Shown here piece after piece: positions 29,408 through 35,870 of a DNA stretch of 64,000 nucleotides. The position numbers were made by a program, and so were the translations under genes. This DNA comes from Pedobacter riviphilus (GTDB taxonomy: Bacteria > Bacteroidota > Bacteroidia > Sphingobacteriales > Sphingobacteriaceae): assembly GCF_014692875.1 (NCBI RefSeq), contig NZ_CP061171.1, positions 2,108,001 through 2,172,000 of the forward strand, given 5' to 3'. A model generated the notes under the pieces. The model had not been told where the DNA came from. It was given only the letters and a program-made list of their open reading frames with translations, and did not search any database. Every line of letters begins with the position of its first letter. Within the stretch, counting starts at the first letter, position 1.

Positions 29408-30124
29408 TTATTTTGCAATAACTACACCCACAGCTCCAGGATATTTTCCACTGGGATTTTTCTTAATTGTTACTTTGATATATCCTTCCTGAGCTAATTT
29501 ATTCCAGGTTTTTTGGTAGCCAGTCGCTGGATCTATTGGTATTTTCCACATGGTCTGTTTACCGTTACCTACCTGATTAAACCAGGGAATAATGTCTGCT
29601 GTTTGCCCCCCGAAATTTAGTGAATTATTTAAAACTTCTATTTCATAATAAAAATCATAAGAATTTTCTGGTTGGTTCAAGGCCCTTTGCCCGAAAGTAT
29701 ACGCAGATCCATTGATGATCGGACTGGTAAAACTGCCTCCCAGAGTCGGAGCTCCCGTTCCACTATAAGTTCCGATCCCATTACTGTACCTATCATACTT
29801 TTGTCCAGCCGTGATCGGTGTATCATCTACTATATTAAAACCTCCGTTTGCAGGCGGCCATTTTCCATTTAAATTGTTGTTTATAAATAAGTTTTCCAAC
29901 TCGCTCCACTTTTGCGACTTGTATAAATCGTAAACACGATCTCTCACGCTCTGAGTTACAACGTTCGAAGGATCATAGGTTGCGGCAAGTTCGTTTGCAT
30001 TTTTGTAAAACTCAATGGCTGGCTTGTTCGGCTCTTCGTTCAAAAGGTCATCCTTATCTGAGCGACAGGCCACAGCGAATAAGGTAATGTTTAAAAGCAG
30101 CAAGTACTTGAATAAATTTTTCAT
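29408..30124 (-). CDS. Lipoprotein with a TNT-type NAD+ glycohydrolase toxin domain
   Basis: A 238-residue lipoprotein (LFAVAC, acyl Cys20). Residues about 85-222 follow the TNT (tuberculosis necrotizing toxin) family pattern: KWPPANGGF (88-96), YDRYS (110-114), an FGQRAL block (145-149), YEIEVLN, and IPWFNQVGNGKQ (179-190), then an AQEGYIKV end. The Arg in YDRYS, the Arg in QRAL and the Gln near WFNQ are where this family keeps its catalytic residues. Known members hydrolyse NAD+. Residues 21-85 form a helical linker. The lipid anchor is unusual for a toxin and suggests surface display or periplasmic activity. Confidence 0.75.
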   Translation of the reverse strand: MKNLFKYLLLLNITLFAVACRSDKDDLLNEEPNKPAIEFYKNANELAATYDPSNVVTQSVRDRVYDLYKSQKWSELENLFINNNLNGKWPPANGGFNIVDDTPITAGQKYDRYSNGIGTYSGTGAPTLGGSFTSPIINGSAYTFGQRALNQPENSYDFYYEIEVLNNSLNFGGQTADIIPWFNQVGNGKQTMWKIPIDPATGYQKTWNKLAQEGYIKVTIKKNPSGKYPGAVGVVIAK

Positions 30125-30899: not shown

Positions 30900-30917
30900 T
30901 GTGATCCCGCTGGGATT
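30900..30917. repeat. Partial copy of the tRNA-Lys 3' end (candidate attL)
   Basis: The 18 bases TGTGATCCCGCTGGGATT are identical to 35796-35813, which cover the 3' acceptor strand and T-arm end of tRNA-Lys. Beyond it the match decays (TGCACCTAGTG against CGAACCCAGGA). Such a direct repeat at the far side of an island is what site-specific integration into a tRNA 3' end leaves behind. No integrase gene is present between the copies, so the element is immobile or the copy is an older relic. Confidence 0.6.
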
Positions 30918-31125
30918 TGCACCTAGTGCTAAAATCAGCGTTTAAATAGTATTTTATGTGGTTTTCGATTTTTACTCAACTAATCGCTCACCATTTATTT
31001 TGTACGTTTTAGCTGCAATTGCTATACTTAAATATATGCAAAATTAGGTAATATACCAATCTTATTTTAATTCTTTTTTGTTATCTAAGAATTATCTAAT
31101 ATCAGCGAATTAAGATATAATCCTA

Positions 31126-33162
31126 TCAACTATTATCTATTTCTTTTAGTTTTTCAATAGTTTTATTTAAATGCTTCTGCTTCTCCTGCTGTAGTGAAAA
31201 TATACATAACATCCAGTTATATCCCTCTAAAATTTTAGCCTTATTAAAAATATATTTACTACCAAGAATTTCAATTAAAATAAATAAAACATAAATTACA
31301 GCGACCAGTATTTGAACGAAATTAAACTCTGTCAACCAATTCTTCATTTTTATGTTAAATGCGAATAAGAAGGCTAATGCAGCTAGAAATATATTGAGTA
31401 AAACGATTACTCCGAAATAGCGAAAAGAATCCCAACCTTTATTTTCGTATTCTTTCCATTCTGCAAGAGCTGCTTGTTTATATCTTCTTTCATTTTCTTC
31501 AACAATTTTTATTTTATTCTGTTCTTCTTCCTTACGCTCATACTCTGCTAATTTTGCTCCTAGCTCATCTAATTTTGTATTTTTTCGTTCAACCTCTCTT
31601 TTTATATTTTCAATAAAGTTATCATCTTTTAAAAAATCAAGTGTTTCATCAATGTTATTTTCGCTAACATATTCTGGCACATTATTTTTTTCTTTTAGCT
31701 CAATATTAAGTCTAACAACATCTTCTTCAGTTAAGTTCCCTTCCTTGAATTGTTTATTTATTTTATGATACTCTCTTGCAACAGTATTATTTGTATAAGA
31801 GCTGATAATGATTTTGGCTTTATTTATTAAATCAAATGATTTTGGCAAATGGTTGCCAGTATTAAAGCCCTTTTTTAGTTTAAACCAAAATCTGGCAATA
31901 GCAAAATCAATATCTTTTGCAAAAGCGGTATCTTCTTTCTGAAATTTCACCGCATTATTATGTGCTAAGTATTTCGAAACAGCATTCTCGGTAATATAAA
32001 TATCACTTATTTTTTCAAATGGAAATGAGTTTTTTCCGAGCCTTTTTAAATTAATCTTGCTAAAAAGAACCAATTGATTATGACAAAATTCTTCATCAAA
32101 AGGCCTTTTATTCTTTTTAGCTTCTACTTCAATTTCTTTAATAACATTTTGGTCAACAACATTGTATCTCGCATGTTTTGCTGCGTCAAATTCAATATCG
32201 TATTCTACAATTCCCATTAATTTAAGTTGATTGTAAAAATTAACTTGTTTTGTTTTAATGTCGCTTATAGTATTAGCATTCTTAACAAGTGCTTCCATAG
32301 CATTCTTAGAGGGGTCGATAGTTTTTTTTCCGCTTATTATCTTTTCACCAATAAAGAAAAAACCGTCAATTTCTCCTTTTGTCTCAGGTAAATAGAATAA
32401 TCTAATCTTCTTTTCCCGGTTTTTAGCGGTAGGTTTATTTGCCCTATTTATATCACTTACTAAATTATAGAAATCATCAAAAATCTCTTTAAATAATATT
32501 CCATTATATCCCAATGCATTAAATAAATGTTCTGGTGCCAAAAAAATATCCAAATCAGTACCCCATTTACCTAGTTCGTTAAGATCTGCTGTATATGATA
32601 ATCCTTGATATAATATGATCCCTTCTCGAATTGAACTCAAATTATTAGTGAAATCGGTATTATTCTGATTGCTAACCACAAATGCACCAATTAACTCAGA
32701 ATACTGATCAGAATAACCATTATCCATTGTGAAATGAGTGAAATTTTCAAAAATTTTCGCTTCCTCTTCCTTGGATATGTCTTTTTTTAGTTTGTTAGAA
32801 ATATATTGATATAAATTCCTTATTAAACTTTCATTTTGATTGTTTACAGTATCAAGCTCCTCTTCAATCTTTTCGAAGTTATCCTTTACAGTAGATTGAA
32901 AGGTATAGCTGTTACTTATTTTTGAAAGTTTTCCATCAAATCTGTTTCTTAGTGTAGTTTTTATAACCGATTCAGGAATTTCAAAACCATACACTTTTTT
33001 TAGAAGCCCCTTAATTTCTTCAGATGTATAAGTTAATTTATTCTCATAAATAACAGCACCTCTAATAAATTCGGCAAGTATATCATAAATATTATTGTAA
33101 TCTTCCTTGTCGTATAATTTTCGGAACAAGGCAACTGAAGCCAATAAATTGTTTTTTCTCAT
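31126..33162 (-). CDS. Large protein with degenerate PIN-like region and C-terminal membrane anchor
   Basis: A 678-residue protein, AT-rich in codon use. The ATG at 33162 (MRKNNLLASVALF) is preferred over a TTG nine bases upstream. Residues ~1-170 are helical. Residues ~200-460 have PIN-like spacing: LDIFLAPEHLFNALGYNG, LFYLPETKGEIDGFF and AIARFWFKLKKGF with KIIISSYTNNTVA; the usual first Asp seems replaced by Ala (FLAPE). A coiled coil (~525-565) is followed by two membrane helices (~584-603 and ~615-635) and a basic cytoplasmic tail. I do not recognise a named family. Its place in the tRNA-linked island with a PIN/AlbA_2 pair suggests a defence role. Confidence 0.55.
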   Translation of the reverse strand: MRKNNLLASVALFRKLYDKEDYNNIYDILAEFIRGAVIYENKLTYTSEEIKGLLKKVYGFEIPESVIKTTLRNRFDGKLSKISNSYTFQSTVKDNFEKIEEELDTVNNQNESLIRNLYQYISNKLKKDISKEEEAKIFENFTHFTMDNGYSDQYSELIGAFVVSNQNNTDFTNNLSSIREGIILYQGLSYTADLNELGKWGTDLDIFLAPEHLFNALGYNGILFKEIFDDFYNLVSDINRANKPTAKNREKKIRLFYLPETKGEIDGFFFIGEKIISGKKTIDPSKNAMEALVKNANTISDIKTKQVNFYNQLKLMGIVEYDIEFDAAKHARYNVVDQNVIKEIEVEAKKNKRPFDEEFCHNQLVLFSKINLKRLGKNSFPFEKISDIYITENAVSKYLAHNNAVKFQKEDTAFAKDIDFAIARFWFKLKKGFNTGNHLPKSFDLINKAKIIISSYTNNTVAREYHKINKQFKEGNLTEEDVVRLNIELKEKNNVPEYVSENNIDETLDFLKDDNFIENIKREVERKNTKLDELGAKLAEYERKEEEQNKIKIVEENERRYKQAALAEWKEYENKGWDSFRYFGVIVLLNIFLAALAFLFAFNIKMKNWLTEFNFVQILVAVIYVLFILIEILGSKYIFNKAKILEGYNWMLCIFSLQQEKQKHLNKTIEKLKEIDNS

Positions 33163-33423
33163 CAATGTCAAGCGTGTTAGTAAATTATAATAATAGGAAA
33201 TCCAATTTTAAAAATGAAACCATTTAGATTATTACTGATTTTTTTTAATCACACTTGTCATTTACAACCCGTTTCAAGACCTTCGATTTACGCATTATTA
33301 CTAAATAAGGATTAAAGAGGGAGATAAGGGAAGAACAAAAAACAAGCCTACAACTCATACGATTTTTCGCTTTTTTATTTTAATCTTTATAGTCTATCGG
33401 CGCTTACTCTGATGTTATAATTT

Positions 33424-34374
33424 ATGAATGTTTATATTGACTTAAATATTTTTGATCGTATTGAGAAGATACATAGGCTTGAAAGTCCTGAAAAATGGTA
33501 TTATGAAAGCCTGTTAGATATGATTGAAAGAAATCAAGTTACAACAGCTTTTTCCAACGCTCATTTGAATGACCTTTTTCGCGGTTATCAGAAAAATCCA
33601 GAATATATTAATGGTCACTTGGAAAATATCAGAAAGCTTACAAAAAATCTATGTATCTGTCAGTACTGGGGTGAACCAAAAGTAATTTGGCATTATCAGG
33701 ATATATTTGTTTTTTTTCAGAGCAAAGTGGATGAATGGAACGATATTCCTAACAACTACGAAGATCTTTTTAAAGATTTCCCTGAAATGGAAAGTGCTCA
33801 TATGCTTTACAAACTTATACCATTACCCCCTAACTTCAAATTGGGTTATAAAGACCCAATGTATGGAATTATGTTTCCTTTATCAAAAATACATAACCAC
33901 CAGTATGCACTCCAAGCCGATATTTTCAATTTTCAAGCACGACTAAAGTCAGATTATGGACTTTATAAAGCTTTTAGGTCATACTTAGTTACAGGCCTCA
34001 ACAAAATCAAAAGCAATAAGGAAATGTTGAAATCAATAAATCAGTCACATCCTGATTTGCCCAAGCATTTAGAAATTACCGATTTGTTGGAAAGGTATAC
34101 ACCAAACAGTAAAACAAGTGAGAACCTTTTATATTCAAAAATCGTTGAAACCTTCTTTAAGTATGATTTGGCTGGATATAAAAGTGACGGTCATTTTAAC
34201 AATATGTTCGATGATGGGCTACACACTTTTTATGCAGCTCATTTTGATTATTTCATCACTAATGATGACCGCTGTAAATACAAAGCAGAAAAAACCTATG
34301 AAAAGTTAAATATTAGTACACGAGTCATAAAAATTGAAGATATTGATCAACTAAAAATGGAGGTTAACAATTAG
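33424..34374 (+). CDS. PIN-like domain protein (predicted nuclease)
   Basis: A 316-residue protein. MNVYIDLNIFD starts directly with a PIN first strand (Asp6). SNAHLNDLFR follows at about residue 43, and the C-terminal part has DDGLHTFYAAHFDYFITNDDRCKYKA, with the acidic residues and the ITND strand typical of PIN folds. The long middle insert (about 70-225) has no family signature. PIN proteins cut RNA, often as toxins or effectors. The stop is one base before the AlbA_2 gene's ATG, so the pair is translated together. Confidence 0.68.
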   Translation: MNVYIDLNIFDRIEKIHRLESPEKWYYESLLDMIERNQVTTAFSNAHLNDLFRGYQKNPEYINGHLENIRKLTKNLCICQYWGEPKVIWHYQDIFVFFQSKVDEWNDIPNNYEDLFKDFPEMESAHMLYKLIPLPPNFKLGYKDPMYGIMFPLSKIHNHQYALQADIFNFQARLKSDYGLYKAFRSYLVTGLNKIKSNKEMLKSINQSHPDLPKHLEITDLLERYTPNSKTSENLLYSKIVETFFKYDLAGYKSDGHFNNMFDDGLHTFYAAHFDYFITNDDRCKYKAEKTYEKLNISTRVIKIEDIDQLKMEVNN

Positions 34375-34375
34375 T

Positions 34376-35581
34376 ATGAGCAAATTAGATAACCTTATTG
34401 AGTTTGAGAATGAGAATACAAGCTTAGATTTCAAGTTAGAAGAGTATACAAAATATAAAACCGTCAGTTTGATCAAAGACATAATGTCTATGGCTAATGC
34501 CGACCTTCAGGGTGATAGATACATTATTATTGGTATGAAGCCTGATCCAGTTGGAAGAAATATAGTAGGTATTGATACTTTAATTGATTCTGCATCCATT
34601 CAGCAGACAATAATTGACAATATCGAACCGGAAATACATTTAGATTATTTTGCTCATCATTATGAAGGAAAATTGTTAGGTATAATCAAAATAACTAAAT
34701 GTGAAAACCAACCGTACTTGATGAAGAAGGACTTTATTTCTCAAAATAGTTCGTTAAAACGAGGAGAAGGTTTCATTCGGATGGGCACAACACAGATGCG
34801 TTTATTCAGATCTCATTACGAACAAATGTATGCCAAACGGTATCGAAGCCATAAATTTTCGGGTGATATAGATATCTCTTTTGACAGAGATAATGTCGTT
34901 ACACAATTGAATATTATTAGAAAAAAAATAGATCGTGAAAATCTTCCCTCATCACTGCAAGCCAAAGAGATTGAAAGAATAATAGAAATTAAGGTGAAAG
35001 AATTGGAGTATTACAACAACATTGGGTTAAAACGAAATGAAGACTATATGGATGCAATGTCTATGATGAGAATTGCCCAATATAATTTAATGGGTGGCGG
35101 TACATCTTATGAGGATCGTTCTATCACCACATTGAGGAAAAACCTCAAAAATATCACCAAAACATACTACGATGAAGATTATTATTATTTAATTGAGAAA
35201 AAGTCAGAAAAAATTAATGTTTTTATAAAAAACATAGGCTCAAGCTACCTAAAAGATGTGAAGCTGCTACTAAAACTACCCAAACATAAAAACTTGTTAT
35301 TAGCTGAGGAGCTACCTAAAAAGCCTAATAATAAATATCCAATAATAAATTCCGGCTATCCTTTCGTTGAAGAATTTCCAGAACATTATGAGATTAGTGA
35401 AGACCTTGGAGATTTAAAGCAGCATCTACTGGTAAAGGCTTTTGATGAGTCATTAAGGATGTTTTTTAGCTCAGAAGATGAAAATGATTTTTATTTAGAT
35501 ATTGAAGCTGCATTATTTGCAGCTAATCTTGATGAGCCAATAAGGAAAAATATCAGAATCTGCGTTGGTAACACCGGTTAA
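34376..35581 (+). CDS. AlbA_2/Schlafen-like domain protein
   Basis: A 401-residue protein. Residues about 8-150 fit the AlbA_2 (Schlafen AAA_4-type) domain: LDFKLEEYTKYKTVSLIKDI, MANADLQGDRYIIIGMK, RNIVGID, DNIEPEIHLDYF, KLLGIIKI and GEGFIRMGTTQMR. A helical part (about 170-275) and a beta-rich C-terminal part (about 285-400, INVFIKNIGSSYLKDVKLLL) follow without known signature. Domains of this type bind nucleic acid or nucleotide, and Schlafen-like proteins occur in anti-phage loci. It is probably the sensor or effector partner of the upstream PIN-like protein. Confidence 0.7.
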   Translation: MSKLDNLIEFENENTSLDFKLEEYTKYKTVSLIKDIMSMANADLQGDRYIIIGMKPDPVGRNIVGIDTLIDSASIQQTIIDNIEPEIHLDYFAHHYEGKLLGIIKITKCENQPYLMKKDFISQNSSLKRGEGFIRMGTTQMRLFRSHYEQMYAKRYRSHKFSGDIDISFDRDNVVTQLNIIRKKIDRENLPSSLQAKEIERIIEIKVKELEYYNNIGLKRNEDYMDAMSMMRIAQYNLMGGGTSYEDRSITTLRKNLKNITKTYYDEDYYYLIEKKSEKINVFIKNIGSSYLKDVKLLLKLPKHKNLLLAEELPKKPNNKYPIINSGYPFVEEFPEHYEISEDLGDLKQHLLVKAFDESLRMFFSSEDENDFYLDIEAALFAANLDEPIRKNIRICVGNTG

Positions 35582-35740
35582 ATTTATTTATCAATTTGTG
35601 AAGCAAATGTTTTTTCATCCCTGTGCTGGCGCACGCGTGCCGCGTGTGAAAAAAGAAACCCTTAAACAATAAATTATTGAGCAGCAATTACAAATTCCAC
35701 AATAAATAATTCATGCGAATTTTGGCAATTCCCTAAAAGC

Positions 35741-35774
35741 AAAAACCCTGCTAATCGTGCGATTGCAGGGTTTT
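35741..35774 (-). terminator. Terminator downstream of tRNA-Lys
   Basis: AAAACCCTGC and GCAGGGTTTT pair around a 13-base loop, 24 bases beyond the tRNA 3' end on the minus strand. It can act on both strands and would also end the AlbA_2 transcript. The stretch 35582-35740 upstream of it shows nothing else. Confidence 0.8.
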
Positions 35775-35797
35775 ATACATTTTGATAGTTTTTGGTG

Positions 35798-35870
35798 TGA
35801 TCCCGCTGGGATTCGAACCCAGGACCACTACATTAAAAGTGTAATGCTCTACCAGCTGAGCTACGGAATC
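35798..35870 (-). tRNA. tRNA-Lys (anticodon TTT)
   Basis: The minus strand folds into a full 73-base cloverleaf: acceptor GATTCCG/CGGGATC with discriminator A, D-arm GCTC/GAGC, anticodon stem TTACA/TGTAG with loop CTTTTAA (anticodon TTT) and T-arm CTGGG/CCCAG with loop TTCGAAT. The CCA end is not encoded. Its 3' end is repeated at 30900-30917. Confidence 0.96.

Follow-up and report, generated by a model that had tools for sequence, protein, structure and literature searches.

Two of the closest described systems are PIN defences: as far as they are presented in the part of PMC13092281 that was accessible, DS-3 is a one-protein defence whose PIN domain is split between the N and the C terminus, and DS-5 is a two-gene defence. 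According to the accessible part of PMC12839542, several Schlafen-linked systems can act as anti-phage modules. Here we analyse three genes that sit in a low-GC block of Pedobacter riviphilus (contig NZ_CP061171.1, positions 2,108,001 to 2,172,000; this whole stretch of 64,000 nucleotides is called the window), a block ending at a complete tRNA-Lys(ttt) gene. They encode a 678-residue protein with a PIN fold and membrane helices (module 1) and a coupled pair formed by a 316-residue PIN protein and a 401-residue AlbA_2 protein (module 2). An earlier note on this DNA had proposed that the trio was a single new defence module. Our results point to a tRNA-Lys element carrying two independent, probably anti-phage modules that were brought together by transfer, a reading to which we assign a probability of roughly 0.7.

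Results

An insertion in the tRNA-Lys gene

The final 17 nt of the tRNA gene, together with the next base, were duplicated exactly at the far edge of the block, 4896 nt away (Table 1); the two copies are identical over these 18 nt and keep 84% identity across a repeat of 32 nt. Because the tRNA end recurs exactly at that edge, the block is an insertion of foreign DNA, about 4.9 kb in size, whose target was the 3' end of tRNA-Lys(UUU). Two features expected of a genomic island, a restored tRNA gene and a displaced 3' fragment at the opposite end, were present, and a third, an integrase gene inside the element, was absent: the three genes are the sole content of positions 31037-35796, the cargo starting past 31036, and none of them is a recombinase or an integrase. 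The genes are real and lie where the earlier note had placed them, and its idea of a tRNA-linked island of defence-like genes was borne out. Two of the window proteins had their closest named relatives in Pedobacter. Just outside the island, a 238-aa protein encoded at 29408-30124 gave a sub-threshold match to a TNT domain (E 0.00048, 20.9 bits vs 27).

Table 1. Features of the inserted element and its target in the window
Feature	Coordinates	Strand	Remarks
Outer element end	30900..31036	-	exact 18-nt copy of the tRNA-Lys 3' end (30900-30917) and conserved interior of ~119 nt
678-aa protein, module 1	31126..33162	-	winged helix, PIN fold, coiled coil, two membrane helices
316-aa PIN-fold protein, module 2, first gene	33424..34374	+	acids at both chain ends
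401-aa protein, module 2, second gene	34376..35581	+	N-terminal AlbA_2 (Schlafen) domain
18-nt core	35796..35813	-	tRNA 3' end and next base, same as 30900-30917
Restored tRNA-Lys(ttt)	35797..35870	-	insertion target

Independence of the two modules

Six-frame searches of 85 fetched stretches with the profiles of all three families found at least one family in 44 stretches other than the window's. Two families occurred together only in L003 and L049, which are one P. frigidisoli locus fetched twice, and these were PIN and AlbA; the 678 family accompanied neither of the others in any of the 44. Among 301 genomes of the bacterial family (tables read by eye), a full-length relative of the 678-aa protein was present in three and a full-length PIN relative in four, one of the latter split in two pieces at contig ends, and the source genome alone had both. 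Homology also stopped at the module borders. With the closest fetched 678 gene it spanned the gene and 133 nt upstream, and with the P. frigidisoli pair it set in 3 nt ahead of the PIN start and stopped 11 nt short of where the AlbA gene ends. In addition, no neighbour of at least 100 aa recurred among 60 proteins of 11 other 678 loci. The trio was thus never found together elsewhere, the very outcome that the earlier note had named as telling against its single module.

The 678-residue protein

Matches to known folds covered residues 18-99 and 202-428 of this protein well, the rest being barely tested. Its layout is winged helix (~18-99), PIN fold (~202-428), coiled coil (~516-602) and two C-terminal membrane helices, a combination not met in our literature search. 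Both the helices and the PIN fold, which had been suspected in this protein as well as in the 316-aa one, were confirmed. The description as nuclease-like held for the fold and weakened for the activity: the position of the first catalytic Asp was occupied by S (21), N (8), A (7) or G (4) in all 40 members, its own included, and because the clade has lost this residue the nuclease label is doubtful. The fourth acid position was T, followed by E in 30 or by G in nine of the 40 members, and G in all nine of a set of more distant homologues.

These losses would suit a membrane-bound nucleic-acid receptor or regulator that is no nuclease and whose PIN fold merely binds, an alternative that we consider a real possibility, with odds somewhat short of even. 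Against it, E211 and E260 were invariant in the 40 members, and the nine distant homologues (strings read by eye) had Asp (7) or Glu (2) at the first position and kept E211 in nine and E260 in eight cases. The invariance of both residues and the acidic first position in the distant homologues suggest that the fold probably descends from a nuclease and that residual activity may persist.

The family was found from Bacteroidota to plasmids of Enterobacterales (five of six plasmid matches inspected). Near a close homologue, L047:1368-5874 held a defence-like block with a patatin-like phospholipase, an RloB-like protein and an AAA_21 ATPase matching AbiLi.

The PIN and AlbA_2 pair

Acids D6, D50, D263, D264 and D281 of the 316-aa protein were kept in 38 of 38 members, two at one chain end and three at the other with ~210 residues between them, and they were placed in the PIN tetrad by the order of elements rather than by superposition. 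Having both the fold and conserved active-site acids, the protein qualifies as a PIN protein. When the profiles of the two PIN families were compared, no match emerged (probability 0.1), so no common descent beyond the fold is claimed. The Schlafen-like assignment of the 401-aa protein was confirmed by PF04326 (AlbA_2; E 4.6e-12), which matched all 30 alignment members at E 0.01. E13 and D18 were present in 30 of 30 and fit what we take to be the spacing of the first two acids of the Schlafen nuclease triad, for which no third acid could be placed.

The two genes are separated by one base, and this adjacency was seen in two of 25 PIN loci, those of the window and of P. frigidisoli, the latter being the only case among 23 PIN loci in named genomes. 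Counting the window, eight of the 25 loci had a same-strand partner of at least 100 aa within 30 nt of the PIN gene; of these partners, only the AlbA genes in the window and in P. frigidisoli were alike. Eleven pairs of related neighbours were found, five of them between the Chryseobacterium loci L017-L021, and these pairs, like the eight partnered loci, speak against a lone gene. With partners in a third or so of the loci and nearly always different ones, PIN seems to be better termed a gene whose partners are exchangeable and which may also act alone. The AlbA_2 family extends beyond the pair, with different neighbours at other loci. The P. frigidisoli pair is located 4.7 kb inward from an end repeat of this type, the other edge of which was not found, on a contig that also carries an LmuB (Lamassu) gene and one for a DUF5712 protein, presumably a relaxase. 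The two genes thus move together, though seldom.

The single-base spacing and the VapC-like fold would also be expected if module 2 were a toxin-antitoxin pair, with a PIN toxin and AlbA_2 as antitoxin and repressor, retained for the stability of the element. We regard this as unlikely: the partners are too seldom present and too seldom alike, and among 40 small same-strand open reading frames (ORFs) next to PIN at the 25 loci, recurrence amounted to a single match of 19 residues, shared by two Chryseobacterium loci. A toxin-first order and an antitoxin of 401 residues are, moreover, unusual for VapBC.

The PIN gene had no plasmid match. A viral origin was considered and dropped, the AlbA protein having no match among phage records and pattern scans of viral contigs having yielded no relative of the three profiles, although divergent copies can escape such scans. 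As separate observations, a distant PIN relative (profile E 3.6e-18) occurred in a stretch that starts with the same end repeat (L157), and in two Flavobacteriaceae (L007:3099-15925 and L009:1-9957) the PIN gene stood in arrays of mostly same-strand genes split by repeats, those of L007 reading AACAATGGCTATAA ... CCGTTGT. The repeats resemble integron attC sites, and the arrays may be integrons.

A genus-wide family of cassettes at tRNA-Lys

The window segment 30864-31110 (247 nt) was used as a query against 145 genomes of the same genus and matched at least 131 of them, part of these matches being the native tRNA end and terminator alone; in at least 66, the source genome included, the match extended to query position 150 (manual row count). 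Beyond position ~173 the sequence varied between the loci compared. Mean column identity was 80% across 56 aligned copies (of 59 retained). Outside the genus, one of 20 genomes from other genera of the family matched, and only partially (59 nt), which makes the end close to genus-specific. A palindrome, GCAC-TAG-GTGC, lies at alignment columns 115-125 with arms that co-vary (GCAC/GTGC, GAAC/GTTC, ACAC/GTGT), which would suit a hairpin and a recombinase site equally well and is possibly a pair of recombinase half-sites. That the repeat acts as an RNA was rejected: the alignment fold yielded five pairs alone (energy -0.83), and three Rfam matches (E 0.11-0.45) did not reach the gathering score.

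We defined a closed cassette as the interval from one end repeat to the next repeat or to tRNA-Lys, and examined 47 stretches, mostly picked for carrying a repeat. Repeat and tRNA on the same strand was a search condition, and it was true in all 15 stretches having both. There were 32 closed cassettes, the window's included, with a median of 3.5 kb; 14 closed at tRNA-Lys(ttt) and 18 at another repeat, the latter being elements stacked in tandem. Mean GC was 0.345 in the cassettes vs 0.384 in 13 flanks past the tRNA. Flank genes of the window adjoin tRNA-Lys elsewhere, four in L150 (92-99%) and three in L147 (96-99%), and the HAD and transaldolase genes do so in L162 (96-97%) and L167 (77-86%), these two genes being at 96-99% identity over L147, L150 and L162; the names SUMF1, MFS, HAD and transaldolase were read from the sequence without a family call. 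A six-frame profile search found none of the window's three families in these four stretches, which indicates that the same tRNA-Lys site holds different cargo in other genomes.

Tyrosine integrase genes or pieces were located at the tRNA-side end of five of the 32 cassettes. In L159, the sole full-length case, and in L169, without a catalytic-domain match, they adjoin the tRNA, and pieces were found in L147, L155 and L158. Relatives of the L159 integrase were present in at least 111 of 144 genus genomes (E 1e-30), though they reach low identity and need not all target tRNA-Lys. A large serine recombinase as the usual integrase was discarded because pieces alone were found, in two further cassettes. 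In a Sphingobacterium (L050:6191-10302), 1.5 kb separate a PIN gene from the gene of a large serine recombinase, complete at 528 aa, which extends into tRNA-Lys(ttt) and gives this tRNA a second type of integrase.

Defence content

At a PADLOC threshold of E 1e-8, 121 cassette proteins matched 143 families and 81 flank proteins matched three; one protein may match several families, so that the counts are of families, not of proteins, and the two sets were of nearly equal size (31,970 vs 31,076 residues), ORFs below 100 aa and the window's own genes being left out of the cassette set. AriA/AriAB, PtuA (Septu), AbiLi, mad3 and a type IV restriction enzyme were among the cassette families listed. 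Models matched by neighbours of the PIN family (129 of 145 proteins scanned) included, among those listed, GajB, ThsB, AbiE, LmuB, a DRT helicase and type I and IIG restriction, and those of the 678 family (60 proteins) type III restriction, AbiLi and PifA, each model being matched by one or two proteins.

The earlier note knew of no described system with this set of genes. Against the PADLOC models, the 678-aa protein had no match and the 316-aa protein reached PDC-M11A alone (E 0.0065); the AlbA protein, in contrast, matched a candidate model, PDC-S50, with its residues 2-139 (E 7.4e-16). Association makes a defence role likely for both modules.

Discussion

The preferred reading, two independent modules carried by one tRNA-Lys element, is grounded in the gene anatomy, the duplicated tRNA end, the element family, the independence of the modules, the defence-rich context and the conserved acids of the 316-aa PIN protein; for trigger, substrate and cell death we can offer inference. 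A site-specific element would have entered tRNA-Lys(UUU) at its 3' end, rebuilding the tRNA gene and displacing the old end to the far edge. Module 1 would be a single-protein system in which the winged helix may sense or bind nucleic acid at the membrane and the PIN-fold part may cut RNA with an altered active site or merely bind it, so that the infected cell is harmed or the phage blocked. Module 2 would combine a PIN RNase with a Schlafen-family AlbA_2 protein, one of several partners of the PIN family; one protein may recognise infection and one or both may cut RNA, tRNA most likely, halting translation. The likeliest course would be that module 2 cleaves RNA and module 1 mounts a membrane-linked response, and the outcome would be abortive infection.

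Rather than a new three-gene system, the window insertion is a member of a family of such insertions found across the genus. These may form a Pedobacter cassette system at tRNA-Lys(UUU), short, mostly recombinase-free, tandem and with a common end of ~119 nt, that would be mobilised in trans by an Arm-DNA-bind_5 tyrosine integrase of a minority of elements and would share and shuffle defence genes in an integron-like way; in this full form the proposal is tentative and, in our judgement, rather improbable.

That the island is old, inert scrap with no present function would agree with its lack of an integrase and with the lack, among the matches listed, of an L159 integrase relative in the source genome at E 1e-30, and is quite improbable given that all three reading frames are open at full length and belong to conserved families (65%, 53% and 43% mean column identity). 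The weakest alternative, a single three-gene abortive-infection system with an AlbA_2 sensor, a PIN effector and the 678-aa protein as a membrane-anchored second nuclease, can appeal to adjacency in the source genome, a common low GC, a common element and a 678 relative in P. frigidisoli (P0126, 78%), though on another contig than its PIN-AlbA pair, and was rejected as very improbable on the separate occurrence of the families, the lack of a recurrent 678 neighbour and the homology limits.

The two-module reading replaces the guess of one system by something testable, two families that lack a good PADLOC model and lie near known defence models, and the precise DNA end can be used as bait to list the cargo of defence-rich insertions throughout the genus. 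The 678 family would be a membrane-anchored winged-helix/PIN protein. No paper was found on the tRNA-Lys cassette family in Pedobacter or on the 678-aa family, a weak negative with subscription literature mostly outside reach.

Comparison with known systems

In the accessible description of DS-3 (PMC13092281), the PIN domain is split across the chain ends, as are the acids of the 316-aa protein (6, 50, 263-281), which differs, on comparison by description and not by sequence, in being coupled to an AlbA_2 gene. DS-5, as described there, likewise joins a PIN RNase to a partner gene, but that partner is DUF5830/AcrIF4-like and not AlbA_2. Bacterial Schlafen/AlbA_2 defence proteins, as far as PMC12839542 could be consulted, share the N-terminal AlbA_2 domain; in the rest of the chain, none of the 30 members of the 401-aa family matched a Pfam family (E 0.01). 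Islander-type tRNA islands, in the accessible part of PMC4383910, resemble the element in the restored tRNA 3' end, in the displaced copy at the far end and, for some of its relatives, in a tyrosine integrase on the tRNA side. They differ in that the window copy lacks an integrase and most of the 32 cassettes a detectable recombinase, and in that the cassettes are short, often tandem and rich in defence models. From VapC the 316-aa protein departs by a long insert between its acids and by having no recurrent small antitoxin gene at the 25 loci. Tycheposons, which are small, sit at tRNA genes and vary in cargo, are similar to the cassettes, which are set apart, by description, by the use of one tRNA target (Lys) and by an end repeat that hardly occurs outside the genus.
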